Notes under the pieces: generated by a model
The model's input: the letters and a program-made list of their open reading frames with translations, nothing else
Told to the model about the DNA's origin: nothing
Database searches by the model: none
Assembly: GCA_001829495.1 (NCBI GenBank)
Contig: MIBJ01000068.1
Coordinates: 1-64,000 of the forward strand
Length of the DNA stretch: 64,000 nucleotides
Reading direction: 5' to 3'
Source: Spirochaetes bacterium RBG_16_49_21
Lineage (GTDB): Bacteria; Spirochaetota; UBA4802; UBA5550
Program-made: the position numbers and the translations under genes
In this document: positions 45,729 to 62,272 of the stretch, piece by piece
How positions within the stretch are numbered: the stretch's first letter is position 1
Layout: every line of letters starts with the position of its first letter

Positions 45729-46190
45729 TTATGCAAGGAAGAATCCCCCTGTGTTCTCTTCAATAGATCCCGGCATTTTCTCCACAAACGCCCTGATCTC
45801 GTCCCGTACGCGGCGATAATGGGAAAGCGCCTCCTCCTCTGTTTTTGAGCTGCGCGCTAAAACCGGCGGGTCCTCGAACCCGTGATGGACGACCTTGGTC
45901 TTTCCCGGGAACACCGGGCACTGTTCGGCCGCGTGGCCGCAAAGCGTGATGACGTAGTCGAATTCAATACCCTTGAATCCATCAACATGCTTCGAGCGCT
46001 TGCCGGAGATATCGATCCCGATCTCAGCCATGACCCTTACTGCAAGGGGATCGACGCCCCGCGGTTCCGTACCCGCAGAGTGTGCCTCAATCGTTTCGCT
46101 TTTAAACGCACGCGCCAGTCCCTCGGCCATCTGGCTCCTGCATGAGTTGCCGGTGCAGAGAAAGAGAATTTTAAGCCTGTCATCATTCAA
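45729..46190 (-). CDS. arsC: Arsenate reductase ArsC, thioredoxin-coupled type
   Basis: This 153-residue enzyme of the low-molecular-weight phosphatase fold reduces arsenate to arsenite. Catalytic Cys12 is in LCTGNSCRSQMAEG, and the redox pair Cys84/Cys91 (TLCGHAAEQC) has the C-x6-C spacing of the S. aureus pI258-type enzyme that is recycled by thioredoxin. AGAGGTG precedes the ATG. It lies directly after the PhoU-ArsC fusion, last in the pst operon. The thioredoxins of the 60 kb arsenic cluster are plausible partners. Confidence 0.93.
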   Translation of the reverse strand: MNDDRLKILFLCTGNSCRSQMAEGLARAFKSETIEAHSAGTEPRGVDPLAVRVMAEIGIDISGKRSKHVDGFKGIEFDYVITLCGHAAEQCPVFPGKTKVVHHGFEDPPVLARSSKTEEEALSHYRRVRDEIRAFVEKMPGSIEENTGGFFLA

Positions 46191-46206: not shown

Positions 46207-47307
46207 TTATTGGAAGAGCTCCCTGTTCGCCGCCTCGATGCGCGAGCGCAGCTCGTCCCTGAGGGCGTTCATCTTGGCCTGGATATCCTCTTCGTCGCCC
46301 GTGAAGCGGGCGGGGTCCGACAGGTTCCATGTTTCGCTTCGCCTCGCGGGCAGCTCCACGCAGAGCTCCTCCCCGCAGAGCGTGATTATGACGTCAATCT
46401 CGTCCACCGGCACGGAGGATATCTTTTTCGGTTTCTGCGATGAGATGTCGATGCCGATCTCCGCCATTGCCCGTATCGCGCGGGGATTGATCCCGGGTCC
46501 CGGATCGGAACCGGCGCTGTATACGGCGGTTCCCGGCGGAAAGATGCGCCTTGCCAGGCCCTCGGCCATCTGGCTGCGCGCGCTGTTGTGCACGCAGAGG
46601 AAGAGGACTCCGCGGATATTTTTCTTCGCGCTTTCAAGCGATTCCCGATGGCGCACGTCCCTGCCCCTGGTCATGTAGATGACGAGCTCGGCCAGGTTTT
46701 TCACGTGATCGCCCATGCGCTCGATGTTTTTTATCACCGCCTGTATATTCATCGCCTCGAAGGTGTCGGCGGGATCGTTCTCGATGATCTTAAGGGAGGC
46801 GCGGAATATCTCCGCGTAATGAGCGTCAAGCAACGCGTCGCGCTCGATTATCTTTTCGGCAAGAACCGCGTCTCCGCCGACAAAAGCCGTCCTCGCGTCG
46901 TCGAGCATGGAGCGCAGGATGTCGCCCATCGCGAGTAAATCGTCGGGCAAACGCCGGCCGCCGTGACTCGCACATTCCCCGGCTCTCTTGCAGATGGTAA
47001 CCGCGTGATCGCCGATCCGCTCGATGTTCGGAACAAGCTTGAGGACCGCCACGAGAAAACGCAGGTCCGACGCCACGGGCTGCTGCTTGGCGAGCACCGA
47101 TACGCAGAGGTCGTCGATCTCGAGCTCCAATTCATTGACCTCCTCTTCCAGGCGCATCGTTTTTTTCGCGAGCGGGATATCATTATTGATGAAGGCGCGG
47201 ATGCCGTCGGACACCATTGCCGCGGCCTTTTCCGTCATGGTGATCATCCGGTCCCGTATCATGTTGAGCTGGGCCTGATATTCGCGGTCCGTATGCTGGT
47301 ATGCCAT
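46207..47307 (-). CDS. PhoU-ArsC fusion: phosphate-signalling domain joined to arsenate reductase
   Basis: The 366-residue protein joins two families in one frame. Residues 1-225 are PhoU: two three-helix bundles, each with its metal-site motif (VPNIERIGDHAVTICKRA near 92-109; IKNIERMGDHVKNLAELV near 193-210). Residues 230-366 are a low-molecular-weight-phosphatase-type ArsC with catalytic Cys238 (FLCVHNSARSQMAEGLARR) and Cys311/Cys316 (TLCGEELC, C-x4-C). Catalytic residues of both halves are present. It sits between pstB and a separate arsC, in a complete pstSCAB operon. The fusion would put arsenate reduction at the Pst transporter's cytoplasmic face; that is inference. Confidence 0.9.
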   Translation of the reverse strand: MAYQHTDREYQAQLNMIRDRMITMTEKAAAMVSDGIRAFINNDIPLAKKTMRLEEEVNELELEIDDLCVSVLAKQQPVASDLRFLVAVLKLVPNIERIGDHAVTICKRAGECASHGGRRLPDDLLAMGDILRSMLDDARTAFVGGDAVLAEKIIERDALLDAHYAEIFRASLKIIENDPADTFEAMNIQAVIKNIERMGDHVKNLAELVIYMTRGRDVRHRESLESAKKNIRGVLFLCVHNSARSQMAEGLARRIFPPGTAVYSAGSDPGPGINPRAIRAMAEIGIDISSQKPKKISSVPVDEIDVIITLCGEELCVELPARRSETWNLSDPARFTGDEEDIQAKMNALRDELRSRIEAANRELFQ

Positions 47308-55124: not shown

Positions 55125-56361
55125 CTATACGTGCCTGAGCGCTTCCACCGGCTCCATCCGCGACGCTTTATATGCGGGATAGAACCCGGCCGCAAGGGAC
55201 ACGGCGAGCACCGTGATCGTTATCGCCACGGTTTCCGGCGCGCTCAATGACGCCCTCAGTACAAGCCCCTGCTGCATTCCGAAATTAAAGGTGATCCCCG
55301 CCGCATTGACGATGATGATGATAATGGCCCCGATAACGACTCCCGCGATCGACCCGGCCGCGCCGAGAAGGAACCCCTCGGTAATGTACATGTACAGAAT
55401 CTTTTCGGGAAGCGTCCCGATAGCGGCGATCGTACCGATTTCACGGATGCGCTCATACACCGCCATCATCATCACGTTCATGATGCTAATGAGCACGATG
55501 GCGACCAGCATTATTCTGACAAACTGGGTCATCACGTCGATCATTTTTGCGATATTCACGAAAGGAGAAAGCCCCTCCCATGTATGCACCTCATAAACCG
55601 GTTTTCCCCCGCTCGATAAACCGGCTAACTCCTTTTTGATGCTTTTTTCAAACGAGCCGAGCTTGTCAAAATTTTTTACGCGAACGGCCACCTCGCTCAC
55701 CTCGGCTTTTTCCATGCGAAGAAGCTCGACCGCATCGTCAAAATTAATATATCCGTCCCTGCCGCCGGGCCCGACCACGCTGCTTAAGATCCCCGACACG
55801 GTGAATTGCATGCCGTTGACCGAGCCGTCCCTGTTGGTCGCGACAATAACCACGGCATCGCCCGTCTTGACGCGCATGCCCTGCGCCAAAAGCTCGGGCA
55901 CCAGTATTTCCCCTCTTTTGAGAGAGTCGCTTCCCGCTGTTATCCTTTTTGTCAGCAGCGGCGTTGTTTTATATTCTTTGTCGGGATACACGCCGTTTAA
56001 ACGAATATTGGTCGTTTCCGCGAAATTGCTGAACATACCGGCGAACTTGATGCGGTGAGAATATGCCTCCACCGCCCTGTTCTTTCGTAAAACCGTTTCA
56101 ACTTGCATAAACTGCTCCATGCTCAGCGTGAGATTGAGCGGCAGATTTTCTATGGAGGCGACGTATCCCTTTCGGTGGATCTGCGCGTGGCCCGAGCATC
56201 GAATCCGTGATCTGCCCGACAATCATGTTTTTAAACGATCCCGAGACGGCAACATAGACCACGACAAAAACGACCCCCAGGGTAATGAGGGACGACGTCA
56301 AAAGGGTCCGCCGTTTGTACCGTATCAGGTTGCGTACGGCAATTTTAATTATGCTTCGCAT
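55125..56361 (-). pseudogene. ABC transporter permease (MacB/LolC-type), frameshifted
   Basis: Read across two frames this is one MacB-like permease of about 410 residues. The N-terminal part (56361 to about 56194) has the first helix TLLTSSLITLGVVFVVVYVAVSG and ends IVGQITDSMLG. The rest (about 56190 to 55125) starts HAQIHRKGYVASI and has three C-terminal helices. The break is at the GGG run (56191-56193): one base fewer restores LGHAQIH. It may be a real single-base insertion or a sequencing error. The start overlaps the ATPase gene by 17 nt. Confidence 0.82.
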
Positions 56362-57079
56362 GGGCTTTCCCCCTTTTCGTTTTTGCGCGCTTCTTTATCG
56401 TTTTCCTTTGTGTTATCAGGCCGTCCTCCAGCGAATATATGATTTCGGCCTCTCCCACGATCTTCTGATCATGCGTGGAGAAAATAAACGAGGTCCCGAA
56501 TTCGTCCCTCATCTTTCTCATGATCGCTATGACGCGGTACGCGGTGTCATGATCGAGGTTCGCCGTGGGCTCGTCCGCCAGCACGATCTTCGGATTCGTC
56601 GCCAGGGCTCGGGCGATGGCAACCCGCTGCTTCTGCCCGCCGGATATCTGGTCCGGATACTTCCCCTTCTGGTCTTCCATGCCGACTTCGGCGATGAGCC
56701 TTCTCACGCGCTCCCTCCTCCTGGCGGGCGGAATGTTCTGAACCATCATCAGGGGGTATTCGATGTTCTCAAAGACTGTCAGAACCGGTATCAGGTTAAA
56801 ATCCTGAAAAATGAAACCTATCCGCTCGCCGCGAAACGCCGCCCGCTCCCTTCTGGTGAGCTTCGATATGTCGGTTCCCTCGATTATGACGCTGCCTCCG
56901 GTGGGCACGTCGAGGCATCCGAGAATGTTCAGCAAGGTCGTCTTTCCGCTTCCGGACGGCCCGATGAAGGAAATAAACGACGACGGGTCGATTGTGAAGG
57001 TCAGTCCCTTGAGCGCCGGCACGGTTATCTCTCCGGCCGTATAGTTCTTTTGCACGTTATCGGCGGTAATAAGTTTCAT
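56345..57079 (-). CDS. ABC transporter ATP-binding protein (LolD/MacB-type)
   Basis: The 244-residue ATPase has Walker [10 protein letters not shown], the Q-loop in [19 protein letters not shown], signature [16 protein letters not shown], Walker [13 protein letters not shown] and the H-loop STHDQ. These are diagnostic of the LolD/MacB/FtsE group. The basic tail [16 protein letters not shown] is unusual. It is the first gene of the export set and overlaps the permease start. Confidence 0.92.
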
Positions 57080-57126: not shown

Positions 57127-57798
57127 TCATTTGCTTTGGTTCCTGAGGCGCTCCATAATCTCCTTCGCTCTTTTTACCGCTTCCTGTTCTTTTTCATCAG
57201 ACGGCACGCACCATGGTTGGGTGACCTGCCATGTCAGCGAACCGGAGAGAGGGGGTTCCGGGTAAGCGCCGGCATCATGCACCGTGTAGCCCATGAATTC
57301 CACGGGATTCTCCTGGAAGCATGACCATACCGCCTTTCGCATGATTTCCGGGTCGCCCTGAAACTGGAGATCGATGAGCATCACCTGTTTTCTGAACCGC
57401 TCGATGAATTCCGCCGGAACATTGTACAGGAACGGATGAAGGGCGTCGGTGCCGATGATCTTCTTCTTTTCGTCGACGCCATTTGCCATAAGGGCCTTTA
57501 GCGCTTGTCCGGTCTGATGGCCCTCGGATTCCGGTCCGCCAAGAATTAAATATCTGATATTCGGATTGGCCACGACGTTGCAGATAATTTTTTCGAAGCC
57601 GATATTGGGCGTCTGCAGCGTGCCGGAGAGGGCAGCGCCGCTTTCCGCGCCAGCACGGACCAGGCGCTCGATCTCAGGCGGGATTTTATCCGCATCGGTG
57701 TTGAGGATGATCGCAACCGCGACCGGGGAAAAATCGTTTCCCCGGATGTACCTCCCCTCTTCCGGGGGATAATCGGGATGCGGCTTTACTTTTAACAT
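57127..57798 (-). CDS. Orphan MtrA-like corrinoid protein (tetrahydromethanopterin S-methyltransferase subunit A family)
   Basis: The 223-residue protein aligns by eye with MtrA, the corrinoid-carrying subunit of methanogen methyltransferase. It has RYIRGNDFSPVAVAIIL, TPNIGFEKIICNVVANPNIRYLILGG, EGHQTGQALKALMANGVD (with His94 where MtrA's cobalt-ligand His lies) and NVPAEFIERFRKQVMLIDL. It lacks the C-terminal membrane anchor and has instead a soluble tail of about 60 residues. No other Mtr subunits are present. It lies 2 nt after acr3 as the last gene of the arsenic cluster, so a role in arsenic (methyl) chemistry is inferred, not shown. Confidence 0.8.
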   Translation of the reverse strand: MLKVKPHPDYPPEEGRYIRGNDFSPVAVAIILNTDADKIPPEIERLVRAGAESGAALSGTLQTPNIGFEKIICNVVANPNIRYLILGGPESEGHQTGQALKALMANGVDEKKKIIGTDALHPFLYNVPAEFIERFRKQVMLIDLQFQGDPEIMRKAVWSCFQENPVEFMGYTVHDAGAYPEPPLSGSLTWQVTQPWCVPSDEKEQEAVKRAKEIMERLRNQSK

Positions 57799-57800
57799 GG

Positions 57801-58844
57801 TTATGAAAAAAATCTCCTCCTGAAAAAAAGCGCCACGTTCACAAGCCCGATAAGCACCGGCACCTCCACCAGGGGCCCTATGACCGCGGCAAAGGCAACT
57901 CCGGAACCGATGCCGAAAACCGCGACCGCGACCGCGATGGCAAGCTCGAAGTTATTACTCGCGGCAGTGAACGATAGCGTCGCGGAAACGCAGTAGTCCG
58001 CGCCTATTTTTTTGCTCATGTAAAAGCTCAGCAAAAACATGACCACAAAATAGATGAGAAGCGGTATGGCGATCCGTACGACATCGAGCGGTATCTTTAC
58101 AATGTACTCGCCCTTCAGGCTGAACATGACCAGGATCGTAAAGAGAAGCGCGATTAGGGTCATGGGGCTGATCTTCGGGACGAACCTCGTCTGGTACCAT
58201 TCCTTGTTTTTAAGCTTGATAAGCGCGAAACGGGTTATTATGCCTGCAATAAACGGTATGCCTAGGTAGATGAACACGCTTTCTGCTATCTGGCCGATCG
58301 TTACGTCCACCAGTACGCCCCTCAGGCCGAAAAGCGGAGGGAGCACGGTTATGAAAAACCAGGCATACACGCTGAAAAAGAGCACCTGGAATATGCTGTT
58401 GAAGGCCACGAGCCCGGCCGCGTATTCAGCGTCACCGCAGGCCAGGTCGTTCCACACGATTACCATGGCGATGCACCGCGCCAGGCCGATCATGATAAGG
58501 CCCACCATGTATTCCGGATATCCGGCGAGGAACAGGATCGCGAGGAAAAACATGAGCACCGGGCCGATGACCCAGTTCTGAACAAGGGAGAGCCCGAGGA
58601 CCTTCCAGTTTTTAAACACGTCGCCCAGCTCTTCGTATTTGACCTTGGCCAGGGGAGGATACATCATGAGAATGAGGCCGATGGCAATGGGAATGTTGGT
58701 AGTGCCGACCTGAAACCGGTTCCAGAACCCTGCCACGCCCGGATAGAAATAGCCCATGCCCACGCCAATGGCCATAGCCAGGAATATCCAGAGGGTGAGA
58801 AACCGGTCGATAAAAGATAGCTTTTTACCTTTCGCTTCAGACAT
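57801..58844 (-). CDS. acr3: ACR3-family arsenite efflux transporter
   Basis: The 347-residue permease has about ten membrane helices and ACR3 signatures: [33 protein letters not shown], the essential Cys in [21 protein letters not shown], and the [23 protein letters not shown] loop near the end. It expels arsenite with the membrane potential. It is preceded by ccdA and thioredoxin genes and followed 2 nt later by the MtrA-like gene. Confidence 0.94.
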
Positions 58845-58904: not shown

Positions 58905-59606
58905 TCACGGTAAAAAAACAAGATATAGTCCGCCCAGGATCACGAGCACACCGCAGGCTTTTTTGAGAATGACCGCGCCCCGCGATTTTTCGTTCCAGTT
59001 AAGATACCGTTGAACTACCTCGGTGAAGGTGCCCGCGAGCACTATGACCGAGCAATGCCCCGCCGCGTAAGCCAAGATGAGGGATATCGCGAAGACGACT
59101 TTCGTGTGCGCTACGCTGAACACAATGCCGAGCATGGGCGCCATGTAGGCGAAGGTGCAGGGCCCGAGAGCGATGCCGAAGACGAGGCCCAGAATGAGCG
59201 CAGCGAAAAGGCCCTTTTTCTTAAAATTCGGATTGGCGCTCCTTTCAAGAAAAGGCAGAGGAATGACGCCCAACAGGTGGAGCCCGACAATGAAAAATAC
59301 TACAGCCACGATATAGTTGCCCCATCCGCCGATATCGCCCATCATGCGGCCCATGAGGCCGGTGATGAGGCCGATAATGCCGATGGTAACAAGAATTCCG
59401 ACGGCGAACAGGAGCGCCAGAATAAAGGCCCGTTTCGTACTCATGCTTCCCTGCTCGTCGATGAACCCGATGATGAGGGGTATACTCGCCAGATGGCAGG
59501 GCGAGAGCAGGATGCCCGCGATCCCCCAGAGGAAGGAGCCTGCCAGGGCGATGCCCGGCGAGGACGAGAGCATGGCGCTCATTGCGTTGAAAAAATCGGC
59601 AAGCAT
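58905..59606 (-). CDS. ccdA: CcdA/DsbD-type transmembrane thiol transporter
   Basis: The 233-residue protein has six helices and the paired Cys of the CcdA family: ILLSPCHLASIPLIIGF near 36 and GIALGPCTFAYMAPM near 148. It carries reducing equivalents from cytoplasmic thioredoxin to an extracytoplasmic partner. That partner is probably the exported thioredoxin whose stop codon overlaps this start (TGATG). Confidence 0.9.
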   Translation of the reverse strand: MLADFFNAMSAMLSSSPGIALAGSFLWGIAGILLSPCHLASIPLIIGFIDEQGSMSTKRAFILALLFAVGILVTIGIIGLITGLMGRMMGDIGGWGNYIVAVVFFIVGLHLLGVIPLPFLERSANPNFKKKGLFAALILGLVFGIALGPCTFAYMAPMLGIVFSVAHTKVVFAISLILAYAAGHCSVIVLAGTFTEVVQRYLNWNEKSRGAVILKKACGVLVILGGLYLVFLP

Positions 59607-60124
59607 CAGCGGACGCCTCCTTTTTCAAGCACCTGCTCCAACTCCTCAAAGGGGAAGTATCCGAGGTGCCGAAAATACTCCTTCCCGTTCCGGTCAAGGA
59701 AGACCTGGGTGGGTATAGCCTGTATACCGTATTTCTGGCCGTAGGGCCTTCCTTCCGGGGTCCAGATATCGTAAAATATTACCTTGACCCGGCTTCCGTA
59801 TTTTTGCTCGATTCGCCGCATCACCGGCTGCATCATTCTGCAGGGGATGCAGTTGACTGAGCCGATTTCGATAAACGTCACCATGACGCCCGGTGCGGCG
59901 CCTTTTGTGTCCCCGTGCCCGGTATTTTCATGTTTGGTCGAATTCTCGTCCACCGCCGCCGGGCCGGTCGGAGCCTTTTCCCCGCCGCAGCCGAAAACGC
60001 CGCCGAAAAAAGCGAGAGGAAGCGTCAATGCGCCGCTTTCGCAAGGGCAGTTTCGCGCCCTGCCCCAGATCATCGCTGCGGCAGCGATCACAGCGAGAAT
60101 TATAAGCCTTTTAGCGAGCTTCAT
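59606..60124 (-). CDS. Exported thioredoxin-fold protein
   Basis: The 172-residue protein from ATG 60124 has an N-terminal hydrophobic segment (LIILAVIAAAAMIWG) and a spacer with a lipobox-like FGCGG. The thioredoxin domain (about 80-170) has the active-site VNCIPCRMMQPVM (C-I-P-C) and the cis-Pro in AIPTQVFLD. The longer frame to 60193 overlaps the DGC relic. It is paired with CcdA. It may keep an arsenic-handling thiol reduced outside the cytoplasm. Confidence 0.85.
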   Translation of the reverse strand: MKLAKRLIILAVIAAAAMIWGRARNCPCESGALTLPLAFFGGVFGCGGEKAPTGPAAVDENSTKHENTGHGDTKGAAPGVMVTFIEIGSVNCIPCRMMQPVMRRIEQKYGSRVKVIFYDIWTPEGRPYGQKYGIQAIPTQVFLDRNGKEYFRHLGYFPFEELEQVLEKGGVR

Positions 60125-60141
60125 GCGCGTATCTCCTCCCC

Positions 60142-60353
60142 CTACACGACGCCGACACGTTTCAAGTTCTTCCGCGCGCATGCAATGGGACACCCGTCCA
60201 GGTGATGTTCACTTCCACTCCCGCAAGACAGGTCTTTTGCGCGAAGCCTTCCTTCCATAGTTTCCGCATCGCCCTATCTGCCAGTTCCCCCACGTCAGCC
60301 GCGCCTGAACATGAATACAAAAGTCTAACTCCTTCGTAACAGCAATCAGCCAT
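60142..60353 (-). pseudogene. DGC-domain (putative zinc-binding) protein, internally deleted
   Basis: From ATG 60353 the frame reads ADCCYEGVRLLYSCSGAADV, GELADRAMRKLWKEGFAQKTC and LAGVEVNI, the start of a DGC-domain protein. It then loses frame. In another frame LDGCPIACARKNLKRVGVV and a stop (60142-60144) supply the DGC motif itself. About 25-30 codons that normally lie between are missing, so an internal deletion with frameshift near 60205 is inferred. Such proteins frequently sit in arsenic and mercury operons. Confidence 0.75.
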
Positions 60354-60381: not shown

Positions 60382-61482
60382 TTAATAAATCAGATTAAAC
60401 ACATATCCTACGATCATGATGCCGACGGCGACGACACTGACGAATATGAAAATTAAGGGCAATTTAAGTACTTTTTTCAATATAATCATCTCCGGCAGTG
60501 AGAGACCTATGACCGACATCATAAAGGCAAGGGTGGTTCCGAGCGAGGCCCCCTTTTCAAGAAGGGCCTGAACGACCGGAATGATGCCCGCCGCGTTAGA
60601 GTACATGGGCACGCCGATAATGACCGCCAGTGGAATTGACCACCACGCCGATTTGCCCATGATGGACGCCATGAAATTCTCCGGCACATAGCCGTGAATG
60701 CCTGCGCCGACGCCGATCCCGATCACTATATAAATCCAGACCTTTGATACAATCTCAATAACTGCGACATATCCGGCCTGAATCCTTTCGGTAAAAGTCG
60801 TTTTTCTTTCTTCTATTTCAAGTTTGCCCGCTTTTATTTCATGTACCCATTCTTCGACAAAGCGTTGGACTTTAAGCTTACCAATGATCCAGCCGGAGAA
60901 AATTGCGATAATAAGGCCGGTGGAGGCATATAAGAAGGCGGTTTGCCAGCCGAAAAGGCCGAAGAGGAGCACGAGAGCGACCTCATTAATCATAGGGGCG
61001 GCCACCAAAAAAGAGAAGGTGACGCCCAGGGGGATTCCGCTTTCCATGAAGCCCAGGAATAGCGGTATCGCAGAACAGGTACAGAAGGGCGTTACGATCC
61101 CGAGCGTGCTCGCCATGATATTCCCGACGAGCAGGGGCTTTCCTTCGAGGGCCCTGCGTGTTTTTTCAGGTGAAAAATAAGAGCGGATGATCCCGACGAT
61201 GAATACAATGAACGTCAGAAGAATAAGCACCTTGGGAACTTCAAACATAAAAAAGCGGATCGCCTCGGTGAGATGGGAATTTTTATCCATACCCAGCATG
61301 GAATACATGATATAGTTGACGCCGCTTTCAAGAAAAATATAAAGAACGATCCCGATGGGAGCGAGCAGCAGCGGTAATACAGTCCTGATTTTAATATTTT
61401 TCCTCCCGGTTTGCGGGACCGCATTTAAGTCTATATTATTTTGAACATAATATTCATTCATGAATAAATTCCCGGTGTTCAT
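60382..61482 (-). CDS. arsP: ArsP-like permease (DUF318 family)
   Basis: The 366-residue protein has eight or more helices and the ArsP/permease signature TPFCTCSAIPLFLGFMESGIPLGVTFSFLVAAPMINEVAL, carrying the Cys pair thought to bind trivalent organoarsenicals. ArsP proteins export methylarsenite and aromatic arsenicals; other family members have unknown substrates. ATG 61461 is an alternative start. It follows the small thioredoxin by 4 nt. Confidence 0.85.
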   Translation of the reverse strand: MNTGNLFMNEYYVQNNIDLNAVPQTGRKNIKIRTVLPLLLAPIGIVLYIFLESGVNYIMYSMLGMDKNSHLTEAIRFFMFEVPKVLILLTFIVFIVGIIRSYFSPEKTRRALEGKPLLVGNIMASTLGIVTPFCTCSAIPLFLGFMESGIPLGVTFSFLVAAPMINEVALVLLFGLFGWQTAFLYASTGLIIAIFSGWIIGKLKVQRFVEEWVHEIKAGKLEIEERKTTFTERIQAGYVAVIEIVSKVWIYIVIGIGVGAGIHGYVPENFMASIMGKSAWWSIPLAVIIGVPMYSNAAGIIPVVQALLEKGASLGTTLAFMMSVIGLSLPEMIILKKVLKLPLIFIFVSVVAVGIMIVGYVFNLIY

Positions 61483-61486
61483 TGTA

Positions 61487-61732
61487 TCAGGTCGGTTGCC
61501 CGACGCTGATCCATTTTTTTATTTCATCTTTGGCCGGAAGTTTCCCCGCAACCTTCACCACGCCGTCAACTACAAGGGCTGGGGTTGCCATAACACCATA
61601 GTTCATGGTGGACTGTATGTCAGTGACGTGATTTATATGGGCTTCTATGCCCGTTTCATGAACCGCCTCTCTGGTCAAGGCTTCCAGCTTGTGGCACTTG
61701 GCGCAACCGCTGCCTAATATCTCGAGTAACAT
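61487..61732 (-). CDS. Small redox-active disulfide protein (thioredoxin-like)
   Basis: The 81-residue thioredoxin-fold protein has the active site LGSGCAKCHKLEAL (C-A-K-C) near residue 10 and a cis-Pro in VMATPALVVDGVV. Such minimal thioredoxins regularly accompany arsP-type permeases and arsR. It may reduce ArsC or the permease's Cys pair. It is the first gene after arsR. Confidence 0.9.
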   Translation of the reverse strand: MLLEILGSGCAKCHKLEALTREAVHETGIEAHINHVTDIQSTMNYGVMATPALVVDGVVKVAGKLPAKDEIKKWISVGQPT

Positions 61733-61876: not shown

Positions 61877-62236
61877 TCACCGTTTCGTTTTACAGGCCAA
61901 AAGTATCTCACCCTGCTGCCTCGCGTTTGACTCAATGACATCCTCCAAACAGCCGAAAAATCCGAGGATACAGGGCGTCCGTAAATAATAAAAAATATTG
62001 TTCCCCGATCTCTTGTCGCCGATCAGGCCCGCGTTTTTCAGCACCGAAAGATGCTTCGAGACCGTTGATACGTCCGCTCCGATCATGTCGGTGAGATCGT
62101 TCACGCACCGCTCTCCCTTCTCGAGCTCTTCGATGATAAAGAGCCGCGAGGGATGGGCAATGGCTTTTATGATCTTAGCCCGCGCCTCGTACTGCATCTT
62201 TTGCGTCGCCGTAAGCTGGCTTTTTAATATTTTCAT
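61877..62236 (-). CDS. arsR: ArsR-family transcriptional repressor
   Basis: This 119-residue winged-helix repressor from ATG 62236 shows AKIIKAIAHPSRLFIIEEL, KGERCVNDLTDMIGADVSTVSKHLSVLKNAGLIGDKRSG and a Cys-containing C-terminal part (TPCILGFFGCLEDV). A single Cys in helix 3 (ERCVNDL) and the C-terminal Cys pair could form a non-canonical As(III) site. A TTG at 62272 falls inside the -35 box, so the ATG is preferred. The transcript is predicted to start at or next to that ATG. Confidence 0.92.
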   Translation of the reverse strand: MKILKSQLTATQKMQYEARAKIIKAIAHPSRLFIIEELEKGERCVNDLTDMIGADVSTVSKHLSVLKNAGLIGDKRSGNNIFYYLRTPCILGFFGCLEDVIESNARQQGEILLACKTKR

Positions 62237-62243
62237 ATTTGGC

Positions 62244-62272
62244 AATATGGCAAAATATCCAAACATTGTCAA
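62244..62272 (-). promoter_or_regulatory. arsR promoter with overlapping inverted repeat
   Basis: On the minus strand TTGACA (62267-62272), a 17-nt spacer and CATATT (62244-62249). The region 62238-62263 holds imperfect inverted arms TTTGGCAATAT and ATATCCAAA, which cover the -10. The predicted start is about 62237, one base before ATG 62236, so the mRNA is predicted to be leaderless and autoregulated. Confidence 0.65.

Follow-up and report, generated by a model that had tools for sequence, protein, structure and literature searches.

The 64,000-nucleotide stretch of contig MIBJ01000068.1 from Spirochaetes bacterium RBG_16_49_21 analysed here, which we call the window, carries, directly behind the arsenite efflux gene acr3, a gene for a soluble homologue of MtrA, the cobalamin-binding subunit of the methanogen Mtr complex. 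Our comparison of related loci supports the view that stand-alone MtrA-type proteins recur in the arsenic operons of several phyla, often together with arsP. We regard the arsenic link of this family as a solid result, strong though not universal; the chemistry that the protein may perform on arsenic is, judged from sequence, a testable guess.

A stand-alone MtrA-type protein

The open reading frame (57127-57798, minus strand; hereafter mtrA) begins with ATG and encodes 223 amino acids. Its product matched the PF04208 MtrA profile with 129.7 bits against a curated cut-off of 25 (E 1.1e-37) and NCBIfam NF002126 with 200 bits against 161, and it fell short of TIGR01111, the equivalog for the Mtr complex subunit MtrA (122 bits against 249). 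The protein is predicted to adopt the MtrA fold. No membrane segment was detected in it, the highest 19-residue Kyte-Doolittle mean being 0.95. MtrA was the sole Pfam match at E 0.01, with no S-adenosylmethionine (SAM) methyltransferase domain, and the NCBIfam matches at E 0.001 included no HgcA model.

MtrA-type genes recur in arsenic gene clusters

We surveyed 36 loci from 33 genomes, comprising 31 found with peptides of the window protein, four further genome stretches and the window itself; because of these 31, the sample is biased to close relatives. Three pairs come from one genome each (L014/L022, L029/L039 and, by matching coordinates, L021/L059). Markers were scored within 6 kb by tblastn, the queries being taken from the window and from neighbouring loci. 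A core arsenic gene (acr3, arsP, arsM or arsA) was present at 22 of the 36 loci, and at 16 of the 25 whose upstream flank spans at least 3 kb. Individually, acr3 was found at 17 loci, arsP at 18, arsM at 2 and the gene for the small thioredoxin ArsE at 16. The lack of a conserved acr3 neighbourhood in relatives, named by an earlier note on this DNA as refuting its reading, was therefore not what we observed. Gene clusters common to four or more loci were mostly arsenic-related. No partner protein, including any methyltransferase, was seen shared beside mtrA across the surveyed loci.

Several loci carried partial or weaker signals: an additional acr3 end cut by the contig (L028), a half-size ArsP-like permease alone (L013), a DGC gene (L023), and a half-size ArsP-like permease with an ArsE gene and a weak acr3 match more than 7 kb away (L014). 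The marker-free loci were L011, L017, L020, L021, L024, L025, L026, L029, L030 and L038, four of them with less than 3 kb upstream. Since markers were missing also from desulfobacterial (L025 and L038) and dehalococcoidal (L030) members of this group, the arsenic link is not universal.

Other genes stood beside mtrA at two of the loci. At L012 (5823-6212, plus strand), the sole locus seen with this arrangement, a ferredoxin-like gene lies 25 nt ahead of mtrA and scored 32 bits on the HgcB model (cut-off 99). At L010 (6102-8373, plus strand), a tandem radical SAM/SPASM gene pair lies directly 3′ of mtrA; the first gene is related to a tungsten-cofactor maturase, below cut-off, and genes like this pair also occur near acr3 in mtrA-free loci.

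As a control at the genome level, we examined 344 genomes of the phylum. The window protein had matches in 12 of them, namely 11 with family members and G034, which holds a distant homologue (34% identity). Above cut-off, acr3 was present in 119 of the 344 genomes, including 10 of the 11 that bear the family and 109 of the other 333 (Fisher p 1.5e-4, uncorrected for kinship); the single family-bearing genome lacking it, G094, is 60% complete. Within these 11 genomes, acr3 lay within 3 kb of 9 of 14 mtrA places, two of the nine being partial mtrA copies, against a chance expectation of at most 0.7% per place. ArsM above cut-off was found in none of the 11 family-bearing genomes and in 22 of the other 333, a difference that is not significant (p 1). 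In G048, which has two other mtrA genes, a C-terminal fragment of a third copy (L104:8500-8622, minus strand; G048 C1:2462505-2462624) lies about 2 kb from a second acr3.

The same operon type was common without mtrA among 39 comparison acr3 loci taken from genomes lacking the family, G034 with its distant homologue elsewhere included. Within one genus, acr3 is followed by arsC in G003 (L068), and the order is acr3, mtrA, arsC in G004 (L057) and G001 (L056). Because the same operon thus occurs with or without the gene, mtrA looks like an optional cassette within a standard arsenic operon. ArsP accompanied acr3 at 10 of 11 mtrA-bearing loci, a set that omits the acr3-free loci L032 and L034, versus 16 of the 39 mtrA-free loci (p 0.005, uncorrected for lineage and contig ends).

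At E 1e-5 the family numbered 3476 homologues, the best 120 of which were 74-100% identical to the window protein. A tree of 39 rows separated the 34 rows of the family from canonical MtrA and from three distant relatives with a branch support of 100/99, at a split where long branches converge; 11 of the 36 inner branches of this tree are open. The spirochaetal rows fell into a pair of supported clades plus a single loose row. Between them stood rows from methanogens and from actinobacterial, chloroflexal and deltaproteobacterial hosts, and this interleaving suggests that the family may have spread laterally. A further MtrA lineage occurs on a Planococcus kocurii plasmid (L061:464-1840, plus strand), where PF04208 is fused to PterinBD-DUF4346 and the ligand histidine is kept.

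Organization of the operon in the window

On the minus strand the genes run in the order arsR, ArsE-type thioredoxin, arsP, broken DGC gene, thioredoxin, CcdA/ArsG-like gene, acr3, mtrA.

61877-62272 (-), arsR regulator (HTH_5; NF033788 80 bits, cut-off 55)
61487-61732 (-), ArsE-type small thioredoxin (TIGR00412 104 bits, cut-off 62)
60382-61482 (-), arsP, organoarsenical permease family (PF03773, E 8.3e-75)
60162-60353 (-), DGC-domain gene, broken (39 of 106 profile positions matched)
59606-60193 (-), thioredoxin-like protein, N-terminal region hydrophobic by eye (Thioredoxin_2, E 6.4e-12)
58905-59606 (-), CcdA/ArsG-like membrane protein (DsbD_TM; NF040495 ArsG 46 bits, below cut-off 200)
57801-58844 (-), acr3, arsenite efflux permease (TIGR00832 455 bits, cut-off 282.8)
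57814-57821 (-), AGGAGGAG, putative Shine-Dalgarno-like site within the end of acr3, upstream of mtrA
57127-57798 (-), mtrA, MtrA-type corrinoid protein gene (PF04208, NF002126)
56345-57079 (-), ABC ATPase (ABC_tran), same strand, 47 nt downstream of mtrA, possible further operon member

The 2-nt gap between acr3 (end 57801) and mtrA (start 57798) and the accompanying run of arsR, arsP, thioredoxin and ccdA genes, both described in the earlier note, agree with the coordinates and profile matches, with the qualification that the CcdA/ArsG-like protein scored below the ArsG cut-off; its counterpart in the same-genus relative L056 reached 213.5 bits on the same NF040495 model. Co-directional and tightly packed with arsR, arsP and acr3, mtrA is by its position a member of their operon. 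The further claim that it is the last gene is less certain, because the ABC ATPase gene continues in the same direction 47 nt on and our terminator scan listed no terminator-like site between mtrA and this gene, nor between acr3 and mtrA.

The DGC gene has a longer open frame in the same-genus relative L057 than in the window. Two ArsC-like genes (arsenate reductase, thioredoxin type; 45777-46190 and 46342-46713, minus strand), both scoring below the ArsC equivalog cut-off, lie outside the operon about 11 kb beyond mtrA.

Cobalamin-site residues are conserved across the family

In solved MtrA, the lower cobalt ligand is His84, the corrin ring is met by the amide of Asn55 and by backbone atoms at residue 82, and contacts to the nucleotide tail include Thr53, Gly57, Asn64, Tyr18 and Val61 (PMC4915002). 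Of the four histidines in the window protein (7, 94, 121 and 174), His94 aligns with His84, as the earlier note had proposed. The remaining contacts align as Asn55 with Asn65, residue 82 with Glu92, Thr53 with Thr63, Gly57 with Gly67, Asn64 with Asn74, Tyr18 with Tyr17 and Val61 with Ile71.

We then scored these positions in an alignment of 152 family sequences (120 listed homologues and 32 other proteins from genomes, after removal of identical rows, of rows shorter than 150 amino acids and of three distant rows). His94, Thr63, Asn65, Gly67 and Asn74 were invariant (152/152), and at the position of Tyr17, 144 sequences had Tyr and 7 had Phe. In solved MtrA the ligand histidine is fixed by Glu54, which also contacts the Ile111 backbone and is not a feature of every PF04208 member; its position holds Glu in 116 family sequences, Pro in 35, the window protein among them, and Ala in 1; the place of Ile111 is taken by His121 in 149. 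Since the pocket contacts are kept and these two positions changed, the cofactor pocket appears to be retained with an altered network under the cobalt. Cys73 was found in all 152 family sequences, versus Ala (Ala63) in both canonical MtrA rows compared, and Gln145 and Phe146 were kept in 152 and 151, respectively. From the conserved cobalt-ligand and contact residues, the window protein is predicted to bind a cobamide.

The host genome (3.80 Mb in 83 contigs, 94.7% complete) holds one PF04208 gene. The earlier note's description of an orphan without other Mtr subunits or an anchor stands for the membrane segment and for MtrH and MtrE, neither of which was found in this incomplete genome; MtrB, C, D, F and G were not searched. 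CobS is present, as are 18 PF02310 matches (16 above cut-off) and a RACo-type activator. An AcsE-like methyl-tetrahydrofolate (methyl-THF):corrinoid methyltransferase (MeTr) scored 224 bits, below the cut-off of 259, and is adjoined by CFeSP gamma (602 bits, cut-off 306).

Discussion

The odds are even, in our judgement, that this family represents a dedicated B12 arsenic-resistance enzyme, derived from MtrA and housed in ars operons of bacteria and methanogens, that would make or break arsenic-methyl bonds without ArsM or ArsI, as a counterpart of HgcA. More specifically, and tentatively, we propose that the soluble operon protein, with its predicted cobamide, may hand a methyl group to arsenite. 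Thiol-bound As(III) would attack methyl-Co(III) directly, and this would account for the lack of an encoded methyltransferase partner dedicated to the task. The cobamide would be re-methylated from methyl-THF by the host MeTr-type enzyme, or from SAM, and cobalt that had slipped to Co(II) would be reset by the RACo-type activator. ArsP would then export methylarsenic and Acr3 arsenite itself. The overall logic would be that of mercury methylation by HgcA, carried out on an unrelated scaffold. The direction of methyl transfer is not decidable from genome data; we favour methylation because no shared partner was seen beside mtrA, because methylcobalamin methylates arsenic as a methanogen side reaction (PMC13262295), because HgcA does an analogous job for mercury (PMC11588087), and because arsP is a frequent neighbour and characterised ArsP exports methylarsenite, not arsenite (PMC6205960). 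What the earlier note had offered, a corrinoid methyl carrier for arsenic, is supported as to the intact ligand and contact residues and the recurrent place in ars operons, while cobamide binding is a prediction and methyl transfer conjectural.

Among known systems, MtrA of the Mtr complex (PF04208; structures 5laa, 5l8x and 8q3v) differs in that the window protein has no membrane anchor, falls in a separate clade, sits in an arsenic operon and has neither MtrH nor MtrE in its genome as found. It also has Cys73 for Ala63 and His121 for Ile111, and its family has Pro or Glu at the Glu54 position, an insertion of its own and a C-terminal extension. Cytoplasmic MtrA homologues of methanogens are likewise soluble, stand-alone proteins of the same domain, but their identity to MtrA is 60-97% and their length about 170-180 amino acids (PMC4915002), whereas the window protein has 223, is about 40% identical over the domain and is arsenic-linked; the available part of that paper mentions MtrA homologues in some bacteria and does not mention arsenic. 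HgcA would share the logic of a corrinoid methylcob(III)alamin handing its methyl group to a toxic element; it works through such an intermediate with SAM as donor, and its hosts include Spirochaetes, Actinobacteria, Deltaproteobacteria and Euryarchaeota (PMC11588087). However, the cobalamin domain of HgcA is of a different kind, and HgcA also has five transmembrane helices and the partner HgcB; none of these occurs in the window protein or locus. MtaA of Methanosarcina also methylates arsenic from methylcobalamin, but as a reaction incidental to methanogenesis and not regulated by arsenite (PMC13262295), whereas mtrA here sits in an arsenic operon. With ArsM (NF008823), the SAM-dependent arsenite methyltransferase, the protein would share the product methylarsenic and the ars operon with arsP; in contrast to ArsM, it has no matched methyltransferase domain and would use a cobamide.

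Several observations weigh against arsenite methylation by this protein. No arsenic marker was seen at 10 of the 36 loci, six of which have at least 3 kb upstream. ArsM above the NCBIfam cut-off lies in the same cluster at L031 and L037, where an additional route of methylation seems superfluous, and an ArsM-like match is present in the window's own genome (194.5 bits, cut-off 263), so that SAM-type arsenic methylation is possible there. The window protein has Pro64 in place of Glu54, the residue that secures the ligand histidine in solved MtrA, and its conserved cysteines are Cys73 and Cys160 only, the latter shared with canonical MtrA. Furthermore, methylarsenite is more toxic than arsenite, and any benefit of methylation therefore depends on export.

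Rather unlikely, in our estimate, is the reverse direction, in which the protein would act as an O2-independent demethylase: Co(I) would take the methyl group from arsenic methylated by neighbours, arsenite would go to Acr3 and the methyl group to folate or coenzyme M. Methanogens and sulfate reducers, which are among the hosts, are anaerobes, and the dioxygenase ArsI could not act in them. Demethylation of dimethylarsenic (DMAs) by methylotrophic methanogens has been reported as a process of unknown mechanism, with a corrinoid route proposed (PMC6776024, PMC10579292, PMC13262295), and such an enzyme would close a gap that has been noted in anoxic soils (PMC6776024, PMC10579292). These soils both methylate and demethylate arsenic, and how they demethylate it is called unclear (PMC10579292). 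Methanogens hold members of the family, the window's genome has RACo and the AcsE-like MeTr, and arsenite as the product fits the adjacent acr3. To our knowledge, however, known corrinoid demethylases depend on a methyltransferase partner specific for the substrate, and none was seen shared beside mtrA. Heterolytic methyl removal by Co(I) also needs pentavalent arsenic. ArsP, by contrast, handles the trivalent form (PMC6205960).

Also unlikely is arsenic handling free of methyl transfer, with As(III) bound by the cobamide or by Cys73 and the protein serving as a chaperone, sink or redox partner to Acr3 or ArsP. The family-wide Cys73, the ArsE-type thioredoxins near mtrA at 16 of 36 loci and the lack of a methyltransferase partner seen beside it would suit this role, but the invariant or near-invariant ligand histidine and cobalamin contacts would be needless for a thiol chaperone, and Cys73 is a lone cysteine, which makes a poor As(III) site. 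We consider it improbable that the protein leaves arsenic untouched and either supplies methyl groups for making methionine and SAM or, under arsenic stress, stands in for a corrinoid protein that is sensitive to arsenic. Although MtrA has been predicted as methyl donor to the core methionine synthase MesA (PMC7857596) and the 10 marker-free loci would fit, the commonly shared clusters are mostly arsenic-related, and no shared methionine synthase was noticed beside mtrA, no search having been aimed at those families. That mtrA is a chance hitch-hiker beside acr3 in this lineage is hardly credible: its nearest tree rows are mostly from the same genus, but the survey contradicts this explanation, with mtrA recurring beside different acr3 and arsP types and in varied gene orders in several phyla.

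As far as the literature was searched, an MtrA homologue in ars operons is not in print. Among the matches listed, with subscription literature mostly outside the scope, no title or abstract links the two; in the available part of PMC10052568, mtr genes of anaerobic methanotrophic (ANME) archaea and acr3 of a bacterium appear separately, and the main texts of two ars-gene surveys (PMC4435449, PMC6205960) do not contain the word MtrA. Of the two named enzymes, the arsenic methylase ArsM depends on SAM, and ArsI, which demethylates, is a dioxygenase. A cobamide-type protein that both bacteria and methanogens carry in their ars operons would be a concrete, testable gene candidate, one that arsM-based surveys would miss.
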